A DNA stretch of 37,215 nt from Acidobacteriota bacterium (lineage in GTDB: Bacteria; Acidobacteriota; Thermoanaerobaculia; Thermoanaerobaculales; Thermoanaerobaculaceae), in contig SCRJ01000096.1 of assembly GCA_004298115.1 (NCBI GenBank), forward strand, positions 1 through 37,215, given 5' to 3'. The translations under genes and the position numbers were made by a program. Below, piece after piece: positions 4,519 to 35,019 of this stretch (the stretch's first letter is position 1; every line of letters starts with the position of its first letter). Below the pieces are notes generated by a model, which had not been told where the DNA came from, searched no databases, and worked only from the letters and a program-made list of their open reading frames with translations.

Positions 4519-5625
4519 TCAAGGCGGCGGGGGCTCCGCGGCGGGGGTTGCCGACGCGGCGGCGGCGGTCGCGGCGGGCGCGGTGGCGAGCACGGCCCGC
4601 GTGAGCCTCACGGTCAGGTGGCCGATGTAATCGGCGCGGCCGGAGAAGGCGATAGGGATGCCGGTACCGACCTCGACGAACAGCGTCAGGGCGCCGCGCA
4701 TGCCGAGAAACCCGAGGTCGACGTCGTCCGCGCTCGCGGCGGCGCCGACGGCGCGAGCCGCGCCCCGAACGGTTCGGACGAGGACGTCGCCGTTGCGCCG
4801 CCGGGCGCCGCCGGGCCACGACTCCTCGAAGTCGGCGCGGACGTAGGAGAGACCGCCGGCGGCGAAGGCGATCTCGACGTAGCGGTCGCCGCTGAGCAGG
4901 ACGAGCGGGAGGGAGCCGTCCTTGCGGTCGAGGCGGGCGGCGGAGACGAGGTAGAGGAGCGCGTACGGGTCGGCGACCGGCATCCCCGGTGGCGGCCCCA
5001 GCGCCGGCGCGGTGAGGTAGTGCGAGCGGTTCGTCCAATCCTCAGGCGGCAGCGACCGCTCGCGCTCGCCTCGGGGCGAGCTGCGCCAGGTGTACAGGCC
5101 CGCCTGCGTGAAACGCATGAACTTGTGATAGGCGCTGCCGCCGAGCATCGTCTTCTCGCCGCCGAGCGCGGCGCCGCTGGCGGGGTCGAGCCAGAGCGTG
5201 ACCCGCTCGTCGCGGCCGAACGGGAGCTCGCTCGCCAGCGAGACTGCCACCGCCCCGTCGGCGGGCGCCGCGACCGGGCGGCCCTTTTCGGGCGGCCGCA
5301 GGAGCACTGCCAACTCCGCGGCGGGGACCGATGCCGCCCGGATCGTCGTCGTGGCCGAGAGGAAGAGCTTGTGGGCGGCGTACCGCAGCTCGGTCCAGGC
5401 GACCGCCGGAGGCGGCTCGGCGACCCCATGCGCGGTGGGCGACGGCTCGGGGGTAGGCGCGGGCGGAGGTTGGGAAGGCGCGGGCGGGGTCGCCGTCGGC
5501 GCCGGGTCCGGGTGCCCGCCGCGGGCGGCCGGCGCCGCCGCGCAGAAAGCCGCCAGCACGATCGCCGCCGCACCCCAGCGCCGCGCCGGTCGCGCCGCGC
5601 CGCCGTCTTGCACCGCATGAACCAT
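4519..5625 (-). CDS. Exported DUF3108-like protein (paralogue A)
   Basis: A 368-residue protein with a signal-like N-terminus (hydrophobic about residues 18-34, then GG) and a Pro/Ala/Thr-rich linker to about residue 70. The folded part begins AWTELRYAAHKLFLSATTTI and ends with a strand pattern GIPIAFSGRADYIGHLTVRL. It aligns by eye over its length with the product of 24826-25719: ELRY-AHK, GSAYHK/GAKYHR, PEDW/PERW, a LLYLVSAA/LLYAASAA block, a LVLL/LVLV strand, and the same C-terminal pattern. The opening pair of strands and the final 'lP...G...iG.v.v.L' pattern resemble periplasmic DUF3108 proteins, which are linked to outer-membrane and LPS functions, but this is pattern-level only. A TACCAT box ends 8 bases before the ATG. 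A Pro/Ala-rich tail ends the protein. Confidence 0.7.
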   Translation of the reverse strand: MVHAVQDGGAARPARRWGAAAIVLAAFCAAAPAARGGHPDPAPTATPPAPSQPPPAPTPEPSPTAHGVAEPPPAVAWTELRYAAHKLFLSATTTIRAASVPAAELAVLLRPPEKGRPVAAPADGAVAVSLASELPFGRDERVTLWLDPASGAALGGEKTMLGGSAYHKFMRFTQAGLYTWRSSPRGERERSLPPEDWTNRSHYLTAPALGPPPGMPVADPYALLYLVSAARLDRKDGSLPLVLLSGDRYVEIAFAAGGLSYVRADFEESWPGGARRRNGDVLVRTVRGAARAVGAAASADDVDLGFLGMRGALTLFVEVGTGIPIAFSGRADYIGHLTVRLTRAVLATAPAATAAAASATPAAEPPPP

Positions 5626-7879: not shown

Positions 7880-10800
7880 CGACCAGGCGGGCAGGCGTCC
7901 CGGGGTCCACGGCGCGCCGGCGGCGTCGAGGGCGGCGTCGAGCTTGACGAGGTCGCCGTCCAGGATCGACCGCAACTCGGCGAGCACCGGCGCGAACGCG
8001 GCGCACGCGTCGTCGTACGACCTCCGCATGGTGGCGGTCGGCGCCTGGGTGGTCGCCCACTGCGCGGCCACGATTCCCTGGACGCGGCCGACGATCGAGG
8101 GCGGCACCGGCTCGTTGTACCGCTCCATCACCTTGTCGCCGGAGAGCGCCCGCTGGATGCCGGCGAGCCGCCCGTCGAGGGAACGCGCCTGCTCGGCGAG
8201 CGCTGCGACGGGGGCCGGGGTCGCGGTCAGGGCCACCTCGATGCGGGCGAGGCGCCCGCGCGCCTCCTTCGCGGTCTCGACCGCGCCGAGGACCGCGCGC
8301 TGCAGGTGGGCGGTCTTCTCCTCGAAGGAGAAGACGGCGGCGCGGTCGCCGGCCTCGAGGGTTGCCAAGCCGAGGGGGACGACGCGGAACTGCAGCGGCC
8401 CCTCCGCCTCGGTGGTCACCCCGTTGACGCGGGTGGCGAGCCGCACGGCGTAGACCCCGGGAACGGCCATCGGTCCGCGGTCGGGGGCGTCCCAGGGGTC
8501 CGGTTCCTTCTTTTCGGACGGGAGCTCGGCCGGCGTCGACGGCGGGAAGCGAAGGTCCCACGCGACGCGGTGGAAGCCCTCTTCGGCCGGCCCCTCGATG
8601 CGGCGGACCACGTTTCCGCCGCTGTCGGTCACGGTCAGCACGACGGCGGGCTTCGCTTCGCGGGCCTCCGCGCGCAGCTGCTCCGGCGTGGGGTAGGGAG
8701 GCGCCACGCCCTTGCCCGCCGCCGCCTTCTCCGCCTCGTGGCGGAGCTCGCGGGCGGTCTTGGGGGTGCTCTTGAGGTAATAGGTGAACAGCGCCCCGAA
8801 CGGAGGGTTGGGGGCGGTGAAGTAGGCGTCGCCCTGGAACGACTTGCCCCGTCCCCCGAGCGGCGAACGCTCGATGTACGCGGCGGCGTCCCGCACCGGG
8901 AAGAGGGCCGCGGGTCGCTCGAGCGCGGCGCGGGTGAGGCCGCGCAGCGGCGTGATGTCGTCGAGGATGTAGAAGCCGCGACCGAACGTGGCGAGCACGA
9001 GGTCGCCGTCACGCTGCTGCACCGTCAGGTCGCGGACCGCGATCGTCGGCAAGCCTCCGTTCAGCTTCGTCCAGTGCCCGCCCGCGTCGTTGGAGAGATA
9101 GACGCCGAACTCGCAACCGGCGAACAGCAGCGCAGGGTCCACGGGGTCCTCGGTCACCGCGTAGACCACCTCGCCGGCCGGGAGGTCGGATGCGATCGAG
9201 GTCCAGGTGCGGCCGCGGTCGTTGCTGCGCAGGAGGTACGGCTTGAAGTCTCCGTCCTTGTGGTCGTCGAACGCGGCGTACACCGTGTCGGCGGCGTGCT
9301 TCGAGGCCTCGACGCGGCTGACCCAGCTCCGCGACGGCACCCCGGGGAACGCCTCCACCCTCCGCCAGGAGGTACCGCCGTCCTCGCTGACATCGATGAG
9401 GCCGTCGTCGGTGCCGACGTAGAGGAGCCCCTCCACCTTGGGCGACTCGGAGATCGCAGTGGCGTTGCCGTAGAACGAGGTCGACGCGTTCTTCGCCACC
9501 GCGTCGACCGGCCACACCCGGCCCATGACCGGCAGCGTGTTGCGGTCGATGCCGCGGGAGAGCTCGCCCGAGACGATCTTCCACGTGTCTCCCCGGTCGT
9601 CGCTGCGGAACAGCTTGTCGGCCGCGAAGTACAGGCGAGTGTGCGAATGGGGCGAGATGATCAGCGGGGAATCCCAGTTCCAGCGGTACGGCGCCTCGCC
9701 GTTGCCCTCCTGCGGCTTGATGTCGACCTCCTCGCCGCTCTTGCGGTCGTAGCGGACGAGACCGCCGTACTGCGACTCGGCGTACACGATCGCCGGGTCG
9801 GCGGGATCGATCCGGCTGACGAACCCGTCGCCGCCGGTCGTCACGAACCAGTCGGCGTTGGTGATGCCGTTGACCGACGTGGTGCGGGACGGCCCGCCGA
9901 GGGAGAAGTTGTCCTGAGTGCCGCCGTAGACGTTGTAGAACGGCCGCGCGTCGTCCACCGCGACGCGGTAGAACTGCGTCACCGGCAGGTTGGACTTGAA
10001 CTCCCAGGTCGCGCCGCGGTCGCGCGTCTCGTAGATCCCGCCGTCGCAACCGACGAGGAGGTGGTCCGTGTCGGCGGGGTCGATCCACATCGCGTGGTTG
10101 TCCACGTGCTTGGTCTTCTCGCCGACCTTGACGAAGGTCTTGCCGCCGTCCTCGGTGACGTGGAGCCAGGTGTCCATCGCGTACACACGCTCGGGGTTGG
10201 CGGGGTCGCAGACAAGCTCGTTGTAGTACTGCGGCGAGCTCGTCATGTAGGAGCTGCGCTTCTCCCATGACTCGCCGCGGTCGGTCGAGCGGAACACCCC
10301 TCCCTTGCCCTCGGCCGCCTCGACGATCGCATACACGACGTCCGGCGCGGAGGGCGCCACAGCGAGGCCGATGCGGCCGAGGTCGACGTCCTTGGGCAGC
10401 CCGCTCGTCAGCTTGCGCCACGTCTTGCCCGCGTCGGTGGACTTGTAGAGCGCGGACTCCGGGCCGCCGTCGATGATGGTCCAGGCGTGCCGGCGGCGCT
10501 GGTAGGCCGCGGCGTAGACCATGTCCGGGTCGCGCGGGTCGAGCGCGACGTCGCTGACGCCCGTGTTCTCCGAGATCTTCAGGACGGCGGTCCACGTCGC
10601 GCCGCCGTCGCTCGTCTTGTACAGGCCGCGGTCGCCGCCGGGCGCCCACAGCGGTCCCTGCGCGGCCACGTAGACGACCCGCGAGTCGCGGGGGTCGATC
10701 ACGATCTTCCCGATGTGCTCGGAGCGCTTCAGCCCGACATTGCGCCAGCTCTTGCCGCCGTCGTCGGAGCGGTAGACGCCGTCGCCCCACGACACCGAGC

Positions 10801-14057: not shown

Positions 14058-14504
14058 CTAGCGGCGGTCCTTCATCGCGGCCGCGGCTTCGCGGTCGAGG
14101 GTGCGGCGCTTGAGCGTCTCGCGCTTGTCGTGCAGTTTCTTGCCGCGAACCAGGGCGAGTTCGACCTTGATCCAGTTGCCCTCGACCGCGATCGCCAGCG
14201 GCACGACGGTGAGGCCTTTCTCCGCCACCTTGCTCGCGAGGCGGATGATGTCGCGCTTGGCGAGGAGCAGCTTGCGGCGGCGGGTGGGGTCGTGCGTGGC
14301 GTACCCCGCGTTCTCATACGGAGGGACGTGAACGTCGGCGAGGAACGCCTCGCCGGCCTCGAACGCGACCCAGCCCTCCTGGATCTTGGCGTGGCTCTCC
14401 CGAATCGACTTGACCTCGCCGCCGGTGAGGACGATGCCGGCCGTGACCCGCTCGAGGATCTCGTACTCGAAGCAGGCCTTGCGGTTCGAGGCCAACACCT
14501 TCAT
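14058..14504 (-). CDS. smpB: SsrA-binding protein SmpB
   Basis: The 148-residue protein shows the SmpB pattern throughout: NRKACFEYEILERVTAGIVLTGGEVKSIR at the N-terminus, then YENAGYATHDPTRRRKLLL, and a C-terminal tail with GKKLHDKRETLKRR. It binds tmRNA and delivers it to stalled ribosomes for trans-translation. The ssrA gene itself is not seen in the window. The ATG at 14504 overlaps the stop of the HD-GYP gene as ATGA, so translation is probably coupled to it. Coupling of smpB to a cyclic-di-GMP phosphodiesterase-type gene is not its usual setting. The cytochrome c gene follows after 22 bases. Confidence 0.96.
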   Translation of the reverse strand: MKVLASNRKACFEYEILERVTAGIVLTGGEVKSIRESHAKIQEGWVAFEAGEAFLADVHVPPYENAGYATHDPTRRRKLLLAKRDIIRLASKVAEKGLTVVPLAIAVEGNWIKVELALVRGKKLHDKRETLKRRTLDREAAAAMKDRR

Positions 14505-15988
14505 GAGCGGATGGCCTCGGCCAGCGCCGGCACGAGCTCGGGGTCGAACTGGCGGCCGGCCTCGGCGCCGATCACGTCGAGGGCGGCATCGCGCGGCAGC
14601 TGGCGGCGGTAGGAGGCCGGCGAGGTGAGCACGTCGTAGACCTCCGCCAGGTGGATGATGCGGCTCGCGAGCGGAATGGAGCGTCCTGCGAGGTGCTGCG
14701 GGTAGCCGCCGCCGTCCCAGCGCTCGTGATGGTGGCGGATGGCGCCCGCGAGGTCGCCGGGAAACTCGGAGGCCTCCACGATGCGAGCGCCCACCACCGG
14801 GTGCCGATGGTAGAGCCGCTGCTCCGGCTCGCCGGGGCGTTCGAGGCGGTACACGCGGGCGTAGTCGAGCTCACGCATGCCGACGTCGTGGAGGTACGCC
14901 GCAACGGTGATCAGCTCGTCCTGGTCCTCGGGAAGACGCAGGACGGCGGCCATCCGCTGCGAGATCTCCGAGGTGGCCTGCGAGTGCTGCCGGAGATGCG
15001 GAAAAGCGGTCTCGCCCGGCTCGAGCAGGACGCGGGCAAGGTTGCGGGCGGCCCGGCGGTAGTCGCGCAGCAACCGCGCGAGCTCGAGGTCATGGGCCGC
15101 TGCCGCGAAGACCGGGCCGGCGGACGTCGCCCCGGCGGGGGTGACGAGCGAAAGGGCGACCGCGACGGGCGGGCCGGCCATCAGCACCTCGGTCCGGATC
15201 TCCTCGGCGCGCGTCGCGCGTCCGCCGCTGGGCTGGCTGTCCCATCCCCACGTCTCCGCCGGAGGCGCCTTCACGCCGGACGCGAGGAAGGCGCGCGCCT
15301 GGTGCGCGGCGACCGCGCCCTGGTGCTGCGGGTCGAGCGCCGTCGCGTGCAGCGCGAGGGCGCGGGCGCTGCGCCCGTCGGTGATGGTGAGCACGGCGGC
15401 AGCAACCTCGGGAAGGCGGGCCAACGAGCGCACGAGGGCGGTGAGGTCCTCGACGATCCAACGGTGAGGGAGGGCGGCGGCGGGCGGCGCAACCGGCGGC
15501 AGGCCCAAGTCCTCCAGGGGACCGCCGGCCGTCAGGAGCGCGCCCCCGCGTTCCGCCACGAAGCGTTCGAGCGCCCCGGCGATGCCGCGCGCCACGGACA
15601 CATCCCCGGGAGCGAACGCCGCCCGCCGGGACTTGTCGCGGGCGTCGACGAGGCCCACCATGCGGCCCGCAAGCGTGAGCGGGATCGTCATCAGGCGCGA
15701 GGTGAGGGCGCCCTCGAGCAGCGGCTGCAGCGCGGGGAACTCCTGCGGCGTGTTGACGTACGCCGGCCCGGTCCGGTTGCGGCGGGCCCAGTCCAGGAGC
15801 GGGTGCCCGAGAGGCAGCGCCGCTGCCAGCGCGTCCCGGCGCCCGAACCCGTAGCTGGTGGCGAGCTCGAACGTGCCCTCGCTCCCCTCGAGGTAGAGCG
15901 CGGCCTTGGTCGCCTGGAGCTCCTCCATGCATCGGTAAAGGATCTCCTTGGCGCGCTTTTCGCACTCGCTGTCCCAGGACGGCAGCAT
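14501..15988 (-). CDS. GAF/HD-GYP protein, probable cyclic-di-GMP phosphodiesterase
   Basis: The 495-residue product starts at ATG 15988 (MLPSWDSECEKRAKEILY). An N-terminal GAF domain covers about residues 8-145; a less conserved middle region may be a second sensory domain; HD-GYP covers about 320-490. Signature residues are present: H in HSQATSEISQ, HD in YLHDVGMREL, HHHERWDGGGYP for the GYP motif, and HLAEVYDVLTSPASYR in place of the usual ADVYD (Asp to Glu at one position). The family hydrolyses cyclic di-GMP to GMP. It is the first gene of the smpB run and its last bases overlap the smpB start. Its promoter region contains the palindrome at 16015-16048. Confidence 0.87.
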   Translation of the reverse strand: MLPSWDSECEKRAKEILYRCMEELQATKAALYLEGSEGTFELATSYGFGRRDALAAALPLGHPLLDWARRNRTGPAYVNTPQEFPALQPLLEGALTSRLMTIPLTLAGRMVGLVDARDKSRRAAFAPGDVSVARGIAGALERFVAERGGALLTAGGPLEDLGLPPVAPPAAALPHRWIVEDLTALVRSLARLPEVAAAVLTITDGRSARALALHATALDPQHQGAVAAHQARAFLASGVKAPPAETWGWDSQPSGGRATRAEEIRTEVLMAGPPVAVALSLVTPAGATSAGPVFAAAAHDLELARLLRDYRRAARNLARVLLEPGETAFPHLRQHSQATSEISQRMAAVLRLPEDQDELITVAAYLHDVGMRELDYARVYRLERPGEPEQRLYHRHPVVGARIVEASEFPGDLAGAIRHHHERWDGGGYPQHLAGRSIPLASRIIHLAEVYDVLTSPASYRRQLPRDAALDVIGAEAGRQFDPELVPALAEAIRS

Positions 15989-16005: not shown

Positions 16006-16034
16006 AGTCTAGCACCGCGATGTGTGGCTGCCGA
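16006..16034 (-). promoter_or_regulatory. Candidate promoter for the HD-GYP-smpB operon
   Basis: On the minus strand TCGGCA (16034-16029) and TAGACT (16011-16006) are separated by exactly 17 bases, a sigma-70-type layout with four of six -35 bases matching TTGACA. The -10 lies 17 bases before the ATG. The -35 and most of the spacer are inside the palindrome at 16015-16048, so a bound regulator would block it. Confidence 0.45.
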
Positions 16035-16048
16035 GCCACACATTGCGG
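16015..16048. promoter_or_regulatory. 34-bp palindrome with GTGTGG-N8-CCACAC core between HD-GYP and lpxC
   Basis: Arms 16015-16029 and 16034-16048 pair over 15 positions, with only 16019/16044 not Watson-Crick (a G:T pair) and a 4-base centre GCCG. The core 16022-16041 is GTGTGG-N8-CCACAC. The same core and spacing recur at 17134-17153. The centre is about 85 bp upstream of the start expected from the sigma-54 promoter of lpxC, a normal position for an enhancer-binding regulator. It lies between divergent start codons, so it is not a terminator for either gene. Confidence 0.65.
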
Positions 16049-16090
16049 TTTCGACGCCACAGGGGGGCGGCCCAACGCCGCCCCCGAGCC

Positions 16091-16107
16091 TGGCACGCTC
16101 CTCGCTT
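16091..16107 (+). promoter_or_regulatory. Sigma-54 (-24/-12) type promoter for lpxC
   Basis: TGGCACG begins at 16091 and CGCTT follows at 16103, giving GG (16092-16093) and GC (16104-16105) with exactly 10 bases between, as RpoN holoenzyme requires; only the base before GC (C in place of T) departs from TGGCACG-N4-TTGCW. Transcription would start near 16117, leaving a short leader with GGAGGCG before the ATG at 16130. The neighbouring operon encodes a sigma-54 activator. Confidence 0.6.
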
Positions 16108-16129
16108 GGCAGAGCACCGGAGGCGAGCG

Positions 16130-17044
16130 ATGGCCTGGCAGAGCACGATCCTTCGAACCGCGAGCGCCAGCGGGGTCGGTATCCACGGCGGTGAGCAGGT
16201 GGCGCTGCGCCTGCGCCCGGCCCCGCCGGGTACGGGCGTCGTGTTCGTGCGCACCGACCTCGGGATCGCGATCCCGGCGCGGGCCGAGAACGCCCGCGAC
16301 CTCGCCTACGCGACGACGCTGCGCCTGCGGGGGGCCGAAGCGCGCACCGTCGAGCATCTGCTGGCGGCGGTGTCCGGAACCGGCGTCACCAACCTCTTCG
16401 TCGACCTCTCCGGGGCGGAAGTGCCGATCCTGGACGGCTCGGCGCTCCCGTTCGTCGAAATGGTGCGCCGCGCCGGGGTCGAGGAACAGAGGGTCAGCCT
16501 GCCGGAGATGCGCGTCCGCCGGGTCGTGCGGGTGGGCGACGACGAACGCTGGATCGAGTTGCGTCCCGGCGACGATCTCGCGGTCGACTATCAGGTGAGC
16601 TACGACTCGCCGGCGGTGGGGCGGCAGCGCTTCACCGGCGCGATCACGCCGCAACTCTTCGCCTCCGCCATCGCGCCGGCGCGCACGTTCGGCTTCCTCG
16701 AGGAGGTGGCGGCGCTCCGGGAGCGCGGGCTCGGCCTCGGCGGCTCGCTCGAGAACTGCATCGTGGTCGACCAGGGGAGGGTCCTCTCCGGCGCGCTGCG
16801 CTTCCCCGACGAGTTCGTCCGCCACAAGGTGCTCGACCTGATCGGCGACCTGGCGCTGCTCGAGTACCCGCTGCGGGCGCACGTCGTGGCGCACAAGGCC
16901 GGTCACGCGCTGCACGTCGCGGCCGTCAGCGAGCTGCTCGCCAACCCCGAGGCGTGGGAGCTCGTCGAGCCGGATCGGATCGCACCGCTCAGCGTGCGCC
17001 CCTACACCGGCGAGGTGGAGACCGAAGCCGCCCTGGCGGGCTGA
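16130..17044 (+). CDS. lpxC: UDP-3-O-acyl-N-acetylglucosamine deacetylase LpxC
   Basis: The 304-residue protein starts at ATG 16130 after GGAGGCG. It catalyses the committed step of lipid A synthesis in the cytoplasm, removing acetate from UDP-3-O-acyl-GlcNAc. Family residues are in place: TVEHLL (E75, H76), IPILDGSALPF-type segment EVPILDGSALPF, ARTFGF, LGGSLENCIVVD, RFPDEFVRHKVLDLIGDL (H232 and D236 as zinc ligands) and AGHALH (H259, catalytic). Length is typical of the single-domain enzyme; it is not fused to FabZ. It stands alone, not with fabZ, lpxA or ftsZ, behind a sigma-54-type promoter and next to an NtrYX-like system, which suggests regulation at the transcript level. Post-translational control by FtsH/LapB is known in enterics and cannot be judged here. 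Confidence 0.96.
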   Translation: MAWQSTILRTASASGVGIHGGEQVALRLRPAPPGTGVVFVRTDLGIAIPARAENARDLAYATTLRLRGAEARTVEHLLAAVSGTGVTNLFVDLSGAEVPILDGSALPFVEMVRRAGVEEQRVSLPEMRVRRVVRVGDDERWIELRPGDDLAVDYQVSYDSPAVGRQRFTGAITPQLFASAIAPARTFGFLEEVAALRERGLGLGGSLENCIVVDQGRVLSGALRFPDEFVRHKVLDLIGDLALLEYPLRAHVVAHKAGHALHVAAVSELLANPEAWELVEPDRIAPLSVRPYTGEVETEAALAG

Positions 17045-17132
17045 CCGGCGACCCGGACGCAGGCTCGGTGGCCCGGGCGTCAGGGCGCCACGGCTGCGGC
17101 GGGGCCTGCGTTTGCCGGCGCCCACCGGGGTC

Positions 17133-17154
17133 GGTGTGGTATGATTGCCACACC
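17133..17154 (+). promoter_or_regulatory. Inverted repeat around a -10 box, directly before the DUF4390-ntrY-ntrX operon
   Basis: GGTGTGG (17133-17139) and CCACACC (17148-17154) are perfect inverted repeats separated by 8 bases; those 8 bases contain TATGAT (17140-17145), a -10-like box ending 9 bases before the ATG at 17155. The core matches the palindrome upstream of lpxC in both half-site and spacing. A protein bound here would occlude the promoter, so autorepression is the natural prediction. Confidence 0.6.
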
Positions 17155-17655
17155 ATGTTTTTGGCCGCGATCCTGCTGGCCGCGGCGGCGGCGCCCGACC
17201 TCGATGTGCTCCTGACGCCGGCCCCGGGCCGCCTGGCGGTGCAGGTCGTCGTCGGCAGGACGCTCCCCACCGAGTGGACCGAGGCTCTGGCCGCCGGGGC
17301 CCCGGTCAGCATCACGTACCGGTTTCGCCTCTACCGCAACCGTCACTGGCTCTGGGACCAGCGGGTCGCCGGTCACGAGCTCGTCGTCAAGGCGCAGCGC
17401 GATCCTCTGACGGGCGTCTTCTCCCTGGTCGCCGAGCTCGACGGCGAGATCCTCGCCTCGGGTCAGGTCGGCACCCTCGACGAGGCGGTGCGCTGGGTGA
17501 CACACCCGCCGCCGTCCGAACTCGCGGTGCCGCTGCGCCGCGAACCGCTGCTGCTGTTCGTGCGTGCCGAGTTCTTGACCCGGTACAAGCTGCTCGTGAT
17601 CCCGACGACCGTCGGGACGGACTGGGTCCAGCTCTCGGTGCCGGAGCTGCCTTGA
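17155..17655 (+). CDS. DUF4390 protein, exported, NtrY-associated
   Basis: The 166-residue protein begins with a short hydrophobic signal (MFLAAILLAAAAAPDLDV). The body is strand-rich with SITYRFRLYRNRHWLWDQRV and ends LLVIPTTVGTDWVQLSVPELP, patterns of DUF4390 proteins. In Betaproteobacteria such genes sit directly before NtrY-type sensor kinases, as here. Function is unproven; a periplasmic accessory or sensor input for the kinase is a fair guess from the invariant neighbourhood. The ATG is 9 bases after TATGAT with no Shine-Dalgarno sequence, so the operon may be leaderless. Its stop TGA overlaps the TTG start of the kinase gene. Confidence 0.8.
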   Translation: MFLAAILLAAAAAPDLDVLLTPAPGRLAVQVVVGRTLPTEWTEALAAGAPVSITYRFRLYRNRHWLWDQRVAGHELVVKAQRDPLTGVFSLVAELDGEILASGQVGTLDEAVRWVTHPPPSELAVPLRREPLLLFVRAEFLTRYKLLVIPTTVGTDWVQLSVPELP

Positions 17656-19760
17656 AGGAGTGGCGGCGGCGCTGGCAGCGCTATCGCCGGCAGAACCGGT
17701 TCCTGGCCGCGGTCTACCTGGGCCTTCTGGTGCTCGCCGGCGGGGCGTACGCGCTGTTCTCGCGTATGGCGGGGCTCCCGGCCGAACAGTTCACCAACCG
17801 GCTGCTGACCTTCCTCCTCTGGTGGTTCGACCTGACGCTGATTGCGATCCTGCTCTTCATCCTGTTGCGGAATTTCCTCAAGCTCGCCCTCGAGCGGCAC
17901 TACGGGATCCTCGGCTCGCGGTTCCGGACGAAGCTGCTGCTCTCCTACCTCGGGCTGATCCTGGTCCCGACGTCGCTGCTGTTCCTGCTCTCGGCCGCGC
18001 TCCTCTCCGGGGCGGCCAAGGCATGGTTCTCCGAACCCGTCGAGCGCATGGCGCACGCCGGCGTCGAGTTGGCGGACGGGATGCGGGCCGAGGCCGAGGC
18101 GCGCGCGGAACGCGCCGCCGGCGTGATCGCGCAGCGCGTGCGGGGGATCGCCTCGGAACCCGCGCGCCTGGCCGAGATCGAGCGGCTGCACGCCGAACTC
18201 GGCGATCACCTCACCGGCCTGCTGCGCGACGGCATCCCGGTCGTCGAGTTCGCCGATCCGCGGCAGCGCATCCTGCAGAGGCTGCCGCCGCTCCCCGCGG
18301 AGGCGTTCAAGAGCGACGGCGTGCGCGGCGAGCGCTTCGGCGGGACGCTGGTGGTGCGCGCCTGGCGGCGGTTGCCGGACGGCTCCGCCGTCCTCGTCGG
18401 CGAGGCGCTTCCGGCCGACCTGGCGAAGGCGCAGGCCCGCCTCGCGGCCGGCGGCGTCGCTTACGAGCGGCTCAAGATCGAACGCCCCACGATCACGGCG
18501 ACGGTGGTCCTGGGGTTCGGAGGGCTCGCCCTGCTCGTGGCGTTCGCGGCGATCTGGCTCGGCCTCTACCTGTCGCGGCGGTTCACGGCGCCGCTGCTCG
18601 CGCTGGCCGCAACCACGCAGCGGATCGCCGGCGGCGAGTCGCTGGAACAGGTGCCGCTCCCGGCCGAGGACGAGGTCGGGATGCTCGTCGGGTCGTTCAA
18701 CTCGATGGTGCAGCGCCTGCGGCAGCGCGACGAGGAGCTCAACGCCACGGTCCGGCGGCTCGACGCGGTTCTCGGCGCGGTGCGCACCGGAGTGCTGACG
18801 CTCGACGCCGAGCGCGGCCGCGTGCGCGGGAACCCGGCAGCGGCCGCAATGCTCGGCGTCCCGGAGCTGGCGACCTCCGAGTTGCCCCTGGACGCGCTGC
18901 GCACGGCGGGGCTCACGTCCATCGCGGAGACGATCCAGGCCGCGACCGGCGCGGTGCGGGGATCGCTGGCCGTCTACCCGGGCGGCCTGGCGCGACACCT
19001 CGAGATGGCGGTCGTGCCGCTGGGTGGGGATGAGCATCCCGAAGGGTGGGTGGTGGCCCTTGAGGACCTCACCCAGCTGCAGCGGGCGCAACGGCTGGCG
19101 GCCTGGAGCGAGGTGGCGCGGCGCATCGCGCACCAGATCAAGAACCCCCTCACGCCGATCCGGCTCGCGGCCGAGCGCATGGCGCGTCACGTCCAGCGCG
19201 GCAGCCCGGAGATCGGCGAGGTCGTCACCCAGGGAAGCCGGGCGATCGTCGAGCACGTCCAGGCGATGCAGGAGATGGTGGACAGCTTCTCGCGCTACGC
19301 CAAGATGCCGCCCCTGGCGCGCCGGCCGGTGAAGCTCGGGGAACTGGCGGGCCAGGCCGTCGCGCTCTACCAGGGCGTCCGCGAAGGCCTCCGGGTGGAG
19401 CTCCGCGACGGCTCCGGCGGCCAGGAGGTCGTCCTCGACCCCGACCAGTTCCGCCAGGCGCTCACCAACCTCATCGACAACGCCGTGGAGGCCTCGCCGG
19501 CCGGCGGCGCCGTGACCGTCGGGGTCGAGCGCGAGGGGGACGAGGTCGTGGTGACGGTCGCCGACCAGGGATCGGGCCTCAAGGTGGACGATCCGGACCT
19601 CCTGTTCCAGCCGTTCTACTCGACGAAAGGGCGGGGCTCCGGCGTCGGGCTCGCGATGGTGCAGCGGATCGTCACGGACCACGGCGGCACGGTGAGGCTC
19701 GAGGCCAATCGGCCGTGCGGCGTGCGTGCGGTCGTACGCCTCCCAGGGAGCACGGCGTGA
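17652..19760 (+). CDS. NtrY-like membrane sensor histidine kinase
   Basis: The 702-residue product starts at TTG 17652, whose last two bases form part of the TGA of DUF4390; a GGAG lies about 5 bases upstream. The NtrY layout is visible: three membrane segments near the N-terminus (about 17-37, 50-72, 95-120), a periplasmic sensor region to about 275, a fourth membrane segment (about 283-305), HAMP, a PAS-like domain (about 365-465), and the kinase core. The H-box is ARRIAHQIKNPLTPI; the ATPase domain has DNAVEAS, DQGSGL and GSGVGLAMVQRI. It should autophosphorylate at that histidine and pass phosphate to the regulator encoded next. The ligand is unknown; NtrY homologues have been tied to nitrogen, redox and envelope control. 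Confidence 0.9.
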   Translation: MKEWRRRWQRYRRQNRFLAAVYLGLLVLAGGAYALFSRMAGLPAEQFTNRLLTFLLWWFDLTLIAILLFILLRNFLKLALERHYGILGSRFRTKLLLSYLGLILVPTSLLFLLSAALLSGAAKAWFSEPVERMAHAGVELADGMRAEAEARAERAAGVIAQRVRGIASEPARLAEIERLHAELGDHLTGLLRDGIPVVEFADPRQRILQRLPPLPAEAFKSDGVRGERFGGTLVVRAWRRLPDGSAVLVGEALPADLAKAQARLAAGGVAYERLKIERPTITATVVLGFGGLALLVAFAAIWLGLYLSRRFTAPLLALAATTQRIAGGESLEQVPLPAEDEVGMLVGSFNSMVQRLRQRDEELNATVRRLDAVLGAVRTGVLTLDAERGRVRGNPAAAAMLGVPELATSELPLDALRTAGLTSIAETIQAATGAVRGSLAVYPGGLARHLEMAVVPLGGDEHPEGWVVALEDLTQLQRAQRLAAWSEVARRIAHQIKNPLTPIRLAAERMARHVQRGSPEIGEVVTQGSRAIVEHVQAMQEMVDSFSRYAKMPPLARRPVKLGELAGQAVALYQGVREGLRVELRDGSGGQEVVLDPDQFRQALTNLIDNAVEASPAGGAVTVGVEREGDEVVVTVADQGSGLKVDDPDLLFQPFYSTKGRGSGVGLAMVQRIVTDHGGTVRLEANRPCGVRAVVRLPGSTA

Positions 19761-21100
19761 GCCACGCGCACATTCTCGTGGTGGACGACGAGCGCGGGAT
19801 CCTCGATCAGCTCGGCGGGATCCTGCGCGACGAGGGGTTCGCCGTCACGACGGTGGGGTCCGGCGAGGAGGCGATCGAGGCGACCGCGCGGGAGCTTTAC
19901 GACCTCGTTCTCCTCGACGTCGCGCTGCCCGGGATCGACGGCATCGAAGCGCTGCGCCGGATGCGCGCGGCCGGGCACGCGGCGCCGGTCGTGATGATCT
20001 CGGGGCACTCCGGCGCCGAGCAGGCGGTGAGGGCGTTGCGCGAGGGCGCCATCGATTTCCTGGACAAACCGCTCGGTCTCGAGCGCGTACTCGTCACGGT
20101 GAACAACGCGCTGGCACGGGCGCGTCTGGTCGAGCGGCTCGCCGCCGAACGCGAGGAGGAGGAACCGGTCCTGACGGGCGTCTCGCCGGCGGTCGCCGAG
20201 CTCAAGCGTCAGATCGCGCTCGCCGCGCCCACGGACTCGCGTGTCCTGATCTCGGGCCCGAACGGGGCGGGGAAGGAGGTCGTGGCGCGCCTGCTGCACC
20301 GCAACTCCAGGCGGGCGGGGAACCCGTTCGTGGCGGTGAACTGCGCCGCGATCCCGGGCGAACTGATCGAGAGCGAGTTGTTCGGTCACCTCAAGGGGGC
20401 GTTCACGGGAGCCGTGGAGAACAAGCGCGGCAAGTTCGAGCTGGCGGACGGCGGCACTCTCTTCCTCGACGAGGTCGGGGACATGAGCCTGCTGACCCAG
20501 GCCAAGGTGTTGCGGGTGCTGCAGGAGTCGCGCTTCACGCGCCTCGGGGGTTCGCAGGAAGTCGGAGTGGATGTTCGCGTGGTCGCGGCCACCAACAAGA
20601 ACCTCGAGGACGAGATCGCCGCCGGCCGCTTCCGCCAGGACCTCCTGTTCCGCCTCAACGTCATCCCGATCCGCGTGCCGGGTCTCGGCGAGCGCCGCGA
20701 GGACGTCCCGCTGCTGGTCGAGGAGTTCATGCGCCAGTACGCCCAGCGCACCGGGGTCAAGCCGAAGCGCGTGAGCCCGAAGGCGATGGAGATCATGCAG
20801 GCGTACTCGTGGCCGGGTAACGTGCGGGAGGTCAAGAACGTGGTCGAGCGCCTCATGATCATGGTCGCCGAGGACTCGATCGCGCCGGCGGCGCTCGACC
20901 TTTCCTCCGGCGCCGTCTTCGTCGATCACGAGGGCGGGTTCACCACGCTCAAGGAGGCCCGCGAGCGTTTCGAGCGCCGCTACCTCGAGCGGGTGGTGGC
21001 GGCGTGCGGCGGCAACATGTCGCGCGCCGCACGGGTGCTGGGGCTCGAGCGCTCCCACCTCTACCGCAAGCGGCGTTCCCTGGCGCAGCACTCGCGTTGA
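19757..21100 (+). CDS. NtrX-like sigma-54-dependent response regulator
   Basis: The 447-residue protein starts at GTG 19757, overlapping the kinase stop as GTGA. Receiver domain about 3-120: acidic pair at D10/D11, phospho-acceptor D54 in LLDVALPG, and K104. AAA+ domain about 140-375: Walker A GPNGAGKE (167-174; the usual form is GExGTGKE), GAFTGA intact at 214-219, and Walker B LFLDE. The C-terminus has a Fis-type helix-turn-helix (SRAARVLGLERSHLYRKR). The intact GAFTGA predicts real remodelling of sigma-54 RNA polymerase, unlike repressors that lost it. The likely binding site is the GTGTGG-N8-CCACAC motif upstream of lpxC and of its own operon. Confidence 0.92.
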   Translation: MSHAHILVVDDERGILDQLGGILRDEGFAVTTVGSGEEAIEATARELYDLVLLDVALPGIDGIEALRRMRAAGHAAPVVMISGHSGAEQAVRALREGAIDFLDKPLGLERVLVTVNNALARARLVERLAAEREEEEPVLTGVSPAVAELKRQIALAAPTDSRVLISGPNGAGKEVVARLLHRNSRRAGNPFVAVNCAAIPGELIESELFGHLKGAFTGAVENKRGKFELADGGTLFLDEVGDMSLLTQAKVLRVLQESRFTRLGGSQEVGVDVRVVAATNKNLEDEIAAGRFRQDLLFRLNVIPIRVPGLGERREDVPLLVEEFMRQYAQRTGVKPKRVSPKAMEIMQAYSWPGNVREVKNVVERLMIMVAEDSIAPAALDLSSGAVFVDHEGGFTTLKEARERFERRYLERVVAACGGNMSRAARVLGLERSHLYRKRRSLAQHSR

Positions 21101-34084: not shown

Positions 34085-35019
34085 TGCGCCCCCTCTCCGC
34101 CCTGCGCCCCGTGTCCTGTGCCCTGTCGTTCCATCCGCTCCCGCGCCGCCACCAGCGCCTCCAGCGCCGCCGGGAGCCTCGGGCCGGGGCGGCTCGCGGG
34201 GTCGGCCGGCAGCCAGATCACCCGGACATCGCCGCCGGCGATTCTCGCTCCGGCCGGCGCGGTCTCGGTGCGGGCGAAGCCGGAGCGCAGGTCGGGCTCG
34301 TCGGCGGCGACGATGACCTGGAGGCGGGGGTCGAGCAGGAGCTCGGGGTCCACCCGGGGGTACCGCCCGGCGCCCGGCGGCGCCAGGTTCGCCAGCGCGG
34401 CGCGGTGCAGCAGGTCGTCGTGGAACGTCCCCGGACCCGCCACGATCAGCGGCTCCCACCACACCACGTAGAGCGCGCCGCGACGCGGCAGGGGCGCCGC
34501 GGCGGCGCCGGCTCGGGCGCAGCAGGCCTCCACGCCGGCGGCGAGGCGCTCGCCTTGCGCGCTCCGACCGAGGATACGGCCCACCTCGCGGCACGCCGCG
34601 GCAAGGCGGTCGAACGACGTGACGTCCACCGTGAAGACGCGGATCCCGAGTTCGCGCAGGCGCGCGATGGCGCGCGGGTCGCTGCCGGCGGTGGTGGCGA
34701 GCACGAGGTCGGGACGCAATGCGACGATCGCTTCGAGGTCGGAAGGCGCGAAGCGGGGGAGCCGTTCGACCTCGGAAGGGAAGTCGGCCGCGGTCGGCGC
34801 CGCCACGACCGAGCGTCCCGCGCCGAGGGCGAACGCCAGCTCGGTGACATCGGGGGCCAGAGGTACGAGCCGCCGGACGGCTCCCTGGCCGACCGCGGCT
34901 CCGGTCTGGTCGACGGCGCCCGGCGCCTGCGGCCGGGCGCAGGCGAGCGGCAGGAGGAGAGCAAAGAACCCACACCAGAAGGTGTGGGTCCTCCGATGAG
35001 CGACGGCGCGCGAACGCAG
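34081..35019 (-). CDS. BtuF-like periplasmic binding protein; start codon unclear
   Basis: The frame reads as a class III binding protein: LVPLAPDVTELAFALGAG, then DFPSEVERLPRF, LEAIVALRPDLVLATTAG, and GALYVVWWEPLIVAGPGTF, as in BtuF/TroA-like proteins. Upstream of these lies a clear signal peptide (FFALLLPLACA). No ATG, GTG or TTG occurs in frame between the stop of the coiled-coil gene (35021) and GTG 34806, and 34806 would remove the signal and the first strand. CTG 35019, one base after that stop, is the best candidate and gives 312 residues with a basic N-terminus; it is used here. A sequencing or assembly error near the 5' end is the alternative. The C-terminus ends in a Gly/Gln-rich tail from repeat block D. 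Confidence 0.7.
   Translation of the reverse strand: MRSRAVAHRRTHTFWCGFFALLLPLACARPQAPGAVDQTGAAVGQGAVRRLVPLAPDVTELAFALGAGRSVVAAPTAADFPSEVERLPRFAPSDLEAIVALRPDLVLATTAGSDPRAIARLRELGIRVFTVDVTSFDRLAAACREVGRILGRSAQGERLAAGVEACCARAGAAAAPLPRRGALYVVWWEPLIVAGPGTFHDDLLHRAALANLAPPGAGRYPRVDPELLLDPRLQVIVAADEPDLRSGFARTETAPAGARIAGGDVRVIWLPADPASRPGPRLPAALEALVAARERMERQGTGHGAQGGEGAQ
34101..34128. repeat. Degenerate 7-bp repeat block D at the binding-protein gene end
   Basis: Four 7-base units related to CCTGTGC (CCTGCGC, CCCGTGT, CCTGTGC, CCTGTCG) lie in the last codons of the binding-protein gene and encode a Gly/Gln/His-rich tail absent from the family core. Confidence 0.45.
34968..34989 (-). other. Perfect 9-bp hairpin within the binding-protein 5' region
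   Basis: ACCCACACC (34968-34976 on the plus strand) and GGTGTGGGT (34981-34989) pair perfectly around AGAA. Read on the minus strand, the stem is followed by TCTTTGCTC. It could be a weak terminator for the kinase/coiled-coil genes, yet it lies inside the reading frame that encodes the signal peptide of the binding protein. It may instead modulate initiation there. Confidence 0.5.

Follow-up and report, generated by a model that had tools for sequence, protein, structure and literature searches.

Two copies of an inverted repeat as probable NtrX-like operators beside the lipid A gene lpxC in an Acidobacteriota genome

Abstract

Two copies of the inverted repeat GTGTGG-N8-CCACAC flank lpxC in a 37,215-nucleotide stretch of an Acidobacteriota genome (the window). 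Judged by conservation in relatives, both are very probably landing sites for an NtrX-like regulator, next to a lipid A gene. The regulator is probably a sigma-54-dependent activator of lpxC and a repressor of its own operon, DUF4390-ntrY-ntrX. In relatives without NtrX, LpxC is fused to an NtrX-like receiver domain.

Introduction

LpxC catalyses the committed step of lipid A synthesis; in Escherichia coli, proteolysis is its main control. For Acidobacteriota, we know of no envelope regulator that has been worked out. The sites described here were first noticed by a first-pass annotation of the window. Sequence comparison revealed the sites and promoters, their conservation, and their disappearance together with NtrX or its GAFTGA loop. 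These findings suggest that a conserved two-component circuit controls lpxC transcription in much of the phylum.

Results and discussion

The repeat occurs exactly at 16022–16041 and 17134–17153, with 1.1 kb between copies, as the first-pass annotation had it. Also borne out is its longer palindrome around the first copy, with arms at 16014–16029 and 16034–16049 (16 + 4 + 16 bases, 15/16 paired, one mismatch, 4-nt loop). The annotation saw no third copy in the window, and a search of all 203 contigs of the genome (3.97 Mb) found no exact copies beyond these two. The motif is therefore not common, and its exact copies lie only beside lpxC and DUF4390-ntrY-ntrX. The pattern read backwards has 0 matches in the 3.97-Mb genome. 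Single GTGTGG or CCACAC half-sites also occur in the window at 9512, 24914 and 34459, and an outward-facing pair lies at 34970/34982; the operator arrangement is not repeated elsewhere in the window. A perfect outward-facing hairpin, ACCCACACC-AGAA-GGTGTGGGT, spans 34968–34990 and is probably unrelated to the operator, since its half-sites are reversed.

Exact matches were expected to be rare, and 0/100 dinucleotide shuffles of the window yielded any. Two matches become ordinary once up to two mismatches are allowed (mean 1.46). Repeated 6-mer palindromes at some spacing are not rare in the window (72% G+C), so the weight rests on conservation in relatives. Such palindromes would speak for a fortuitous pair of repeats in a genome rich in G+C. 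However, the genome holds no further copies, and orthologous positions are conserved across families and classes; a chance origin was thus rejected, with a negligible probability.

Genomes of relatives were nearly all metagenome assemblies and, being related, are not independent. Among 60 relatives searched, the exact pattern was found in 8/8 other genus members and several members of other families, mostly adjoining lpxC. Aligned loci gave the conserved core TGTGGY-N6-RCCACA, widened in farther relatives to TGTKGY-N6-RCMACA. Loci with lpxC contain 67 core sites in 16.9 kb upstream of lpxC and DUF4390, against 5 in the remaining 427 kb (odds ratio 339). The footprinting proposed earlier thus found sites that are conserved and promoter-associated.

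Eleven genomes were searched whole. Outside the lpxC and DUF4390 upstream regions the core was barely above control in them, which points to a very small regulon. A broad regulon was rejected, as core sites beyond these two places are at background level. Extra core matches in the window's genome (C34:6697, C169:2191 and C169:4698) are coding-looking or have no conserved intergenic counterpart; counterparts were sought among core matches of four other genus members. The match at position 4698 of locus L075 (genome G000, contig C169), the palindrome TGTGGTGAGAAAGCCACA, is possibly upstream of an M3-type peptidase gene and has no counterpart in the four genus genomes searched.

Fifty-eight DUF4390 loci were divided into type A (39) and type B (19). 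Type A loci have the order lpxC, DUF4390, ntrY, ntrX, as in the window. Type B loci have DUF4390-ntrY without lpxC and without ntrX; the TPR gene that lies 3′ of ntrX in the window directly follows ntrY in 6 of the 10 type B loci inspected. A core site with at most one mismatch is present in 37/39 type A loci with an NtrX-type regulator (G005, G013 and G048 being counted as type A despite loci cut by contig ends). At type B loci, where NtrX is lost, the count is 0/19 and the best match has 3–4 mismatches. G039 and G048 have two-mismatch sites only. Site presence mapped on the NtrY tree takes six separate changes, versus 16 on average with shuffled labels, which reduces the concern about kinship. 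G007 is without site 1 because its HD-GYP and lpxC genes are only about 50 bp apart in the assembly.

The first copy (site 1) lies between a divergent gene and lpxC, among the following features.

14501–15988, minus strand: divergent GAF/HD-GYP protein (PF13487); site 1 is 33 bp from its start codon.
16006–16011, minus strand: −10-like TAGACT of the HD-GYP gene, conserved in the genus alignment; putative promoter.
16022–16041 (core 16023–16040, TGTGGY-N6-RCCACA), unstranded: operator site 1, upstream of lpxC; conserved at type A and absent at type B loci.
16044–16061, unstranded: weaker tandem operator 1b, TGCGGTTTCGACGCCACA, 21 bp from site 1; its right half GCCACA is conserved in the genus.
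16091–16106, plus strand: putative sigma-54 (−24/−12) promoter of lpxC, TGGCACGctccTCGCT, with GG at 16092–16093 and GC at 16104–16105.
16130–17044, plus strand: lpxC (PF03331; TIGR00325 above cut-off), the proposed main target.

Site 1 is likely an NtrX enhancer site. TGGCACGctccTCGCT sits between it and the lpxC start, and its GG-N10-GC spacing is correct for sigma-54. Conserved blocks in the genus alignment are the sigma-54 promoter, the half-sites, the second half-site GCCACAG and GGAGG. Nearly every type A locus has a counterpart of the promoter 46–137 bp downstream of candidate NtrX sites, and RpoN is encoded in 57/60 genomes and in the window's. At a threshold of 0.8, which 4.4% of random windows reach, the promoter was called in 44/45 lpxC genes linked to NtrX with GAFTGA, a set that includes a few with GSFTGA or truncated at a contig end. 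It was called in 0/4 lpxC genes where NtrX has lost GAFTGA and its helix-turn-helix (HTH) has decayed (G062, G090, G114 and G168). GAFTGA is the sigma-54 contact of NtrC-type proteins, so the coupled loss agrees with NtrX acting on lpxC as a sigma-54 activator. NtrX on site 1 (and 1b), about 50–70 bp upstream of −24, would act as an enhancer-binding activator. Tandem sites 18–22 bp apart also occur in families f8, f11 and f5. In other classes, four loci (L221, L226, L235 and L243) have two operators 35 bp apart upstream of lpxC.

The second copy (site 2) lies at the head of the regulator's operon.

17134–17153, unstranded: operator site 2, enclosing the −10 of the putative DUF4390-ntrY-ntrX promoter; genus form TGTGGTANNNNTGCCACA, with ATG 2–3 nt later.
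17137–17145, plus strand: extended −10 element TGGTATGAT inside site 2, from sequence and an alignment of 12 relatives; putative promoter.
17155–17655, plus strand: DUF4390 protein (PF14334), first gene of the operon.
17652–19760, plus strand: NtrY-like sensor histidine kinase (HAMP, HisKA and HATPase by domain search; exact start codon uncertain).
19757–21100, plus strand: NtrX-like response regulator (receiver, AAA+ with GAFTGA, Fis-type HTH), proposed binder of both sites.

The sequence of site 2 is GTGTGGTATGATTGCCACAC, followed by C and the DUF4390 ATG. Within it, TG-N-TATGAT reads as an extended −10; TGTGGTA is retained in nearly all copies of site 2. DUF4390 is likely leaderless, starting at ATG 17155. 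With NtrX bound here, both the start site and the sigma-70 extended −10 would be masked, which suggests repression of DUF4390-ntrY-ntrX, a negative feedback. A sigma-54 promoter for DUF4390 was not accepted, because the GG-GC spacing at site 2 is 7 rather than 10; the spacer fits a −10. Families f5, f8 and f11 have a site at lpxC only, and the unlinked ntrYX operons of other classes have no clear site. The feedback therefore looks like a lineage-specific addition, and autoregulation as a general rule was rejected. The exact site-2 pattern is too narrow for a useful phylum-wide search.

The 34–36 bp palindrome at site 1 could instead function in RNA, as a hairpin or a terminator separating the divergent genes, since its stem is long and near-perfect. 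Yet the palindrome lies upstream of both predicted transcription starts and has no T run, relatives conserve only its TGTGG/CCACA core, and site 2 has no comparable stem. An RNA role is accordingly very improbable, and the repeat is better read as an operator.

The comparison was extended outside the class to 40 lpxC loci of other families and classes. Both the sites and the sigma-54 promoters were again common there, and in other classes lpxC sites are present even where lpxC and ntrYX are far apart. Likely NtrX orthologues (48–56% identical) are encoded elsewhere in those genomes, so NtrX would act there in trans. The lpxC switch appears to recur across much of the phylum Acidobacteriota. 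These unlinked lpxC sites, the lpxC sigma-54 promoter and the −10 inside site 2 were absent from the first-pass annotation.

The protein at 19757–21100 has the makeup of an NtrC-family sigma-54 activator (bEBP): domains PF00072, PF00158 and PF02954, a conserved GAFTGA loop from residue 214, and, in its genome, RpoN and a −24/−12 promoter downstream of the candidate sites. Its gene directly follows that of an NtrY-type kinase, as expected of ntrX. The NtrX equivalog model NF051870 matches it over the full length and best among all NCBIfam models, with 460.7 bits versus a cut-off of 600; the protein is therefore called NtrX-like. The conserved core does not match the alphaproteobacterial NtrX operator (GCA-N9-TGC or CAA-N2-5-TTG) and has the TyrR/QseF-type geometry TGT-N12-ACA. 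In family f5 (L158, L162, L165 and L173) the recognition helix reads DRTTLHRK instead of ERSHLYRK, and the right half-sites are altered too (GCCGCA, GCAGCA), a hint of protein-site coevolution.

Conservation upstream of lpxC and DUF4390 and loss with NtrX support the earlier proposal that the repeat is an operator, with the NtrX-like protein as its most likely binder. Another regulator, either an NtrC-family paralogue or an unrelated factor, might bind the palindrome and control the locus, with NtrX merely a neighbor. The genome encodes many NtrC-family paralogues, and in other classes lpxC sites lie far from ntrYX. Against this, loci that have lost NtrX have no site, the sigma-54 promoter is missing wherever the linked NtrX is without GAFTGA, and site 2 overlies the ntrX operon's promoter. 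We consider another binder unlikely. For NtrX we infer DNA binding, phosphorylation by NtrY, the signs of regulation and the signal.

The local regulon proposed at first joined lpxC (lipid A synthesis), the regulator's own operon and the HD-GYP gene. The first two parts are supported; the third is not specifically supported. The HD-GYP gene is a possible, weakly supported target: the placement of TAGACT puts site 1 over its likely −35 region, so NtrX may repress it. Some lineages keep the lpxC site with no HD-GYP gene detected next to lpxC, and type B genomes, having lost NtrX, keep HD-GYP beside DUF4390-ntrY without any site. HD-GYP as the primary target is unsupported.

Enteric NtrC activates the sigma-54 promoter of glnA from upstream sites and represses its own sigma-70 promoter by covering it. 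The dual role proposed for NtrX is similar; target, sensor and operator differ.

An NtrC-family regulator targeting lpxC is already known. In Desulfovibrio vulgaris, lpxC was the single DAP-chip target of DVU2934, whose operon encodes a kinase and an HD-GYP regulator; in Syntrophobacter, lpxC is directly upstream of the orthologous operon (PMC3333781). The DVU2934 motif was found in few relatives, and the study proposed that orthologues might recognize a different one (PMC3333781). The window system resembles this one in having lpxC as target of an NtrC-family regulator, a likeness that does not imply orthology. It differs in its lineage, defined palindrome, added feedback site and linkage of lpxC to DUF4390-ntrYX, and by this comparison appears to be a new variant. 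It bears on the open Desulfovibrio point, that orthologues might keep the lpxC target and read a different motif.

NtrYX of Rhodobacter sphaeroides, Brucella and Sinorhizobium affects the envelope, with lpxC transcript changes in mutants, and the published alphaproteobacterial NtrX motifs are those given above (PMC7240162, PMC9223101, PMC12444477). R. sphaeroides NtrX binds upstream of its own operon (PMC7240162). In a mutant of the R. sphaeroides ntrX system the lpxC transcript rises about nine-fold, with no site upstream of lpxC (PMC7240162, PMC12444477). In these bacteria lpxC is repressed, indirectly in R. sphaeroides, whereas the window's lpxC has its own sites together with a sigma-54 promoter, which predicts activation. 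TyrR and QseF/GlrR boxes are 18-bp palindromes, TGT-N12-ACA, read by a Fis-type HTH, and akr is down-regulated through a TyrR box that overlies a −10 (PMC4374768, PMC8745638). The window core shares this frame and differs in its inner bases (GGY versus AAA in TyrR or C in QseF).

Almost all type B genomes with an lpxC found encode a receiver-LpxC fusion, with LpxC placed behind the receiver domain; the exception is G047. The fusions of this class and of family f37 are L089 (G000 contig C21:37721–38995), L157, L160, L180–L193, L195, L196, L224 and L225. The fusions are about 425–440 aa long and retain the aspartate for phosphorylation as well as the zinc and catalytic motifs of LpxC; Pfam confirmed both domains in the two tested. 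The sigma-54 promoter was called in 0/19 fusion genes (threshold 0.8). The window's genome has both forms, the NtrX-linked lpxC and the fusion on contig C21. The long open reading frame of this second lpxC was considered as an LpxC-FabZ fusion and rejected, as it is a receiver-LpxC. The fused receivers form one group (support 0.91) branching on the NtrX side of the receiver tree, a placement taken with caution given the short domain and midpoint root. Among 149 genomes, the fusion was found outside the class only in family f37. A literature search for such a fusion returned nothing on point, which is not proof of absence.

By gene content, receiver-LpxC evidently replaces NtrX and lpxC in type B genomes. 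In such a fusion the committed lipid A enzyme would itself be the output of a response regulator; with LpxC fused to an NtrX-like receiver, NtrY would presumably phosphorylate it and so control the enzyme directly. That NtrY runs lipid A synthesis by two interchangeable wirings, NtrX/sigma-54 on lpxC or receiver-LpxC directly, is a tentative reading, to which we give slightly less than an even chance. The fusions in NtrX-less relatives offer a way to test whether phosphorylation controls lipid A synthesis directly. In G015 and G013, which also have receiver-LpxC, LpxC at the NtrX-linked locus (L133 and L194) is very divergent, at about 35% identity, and may be decaying or changed in function.
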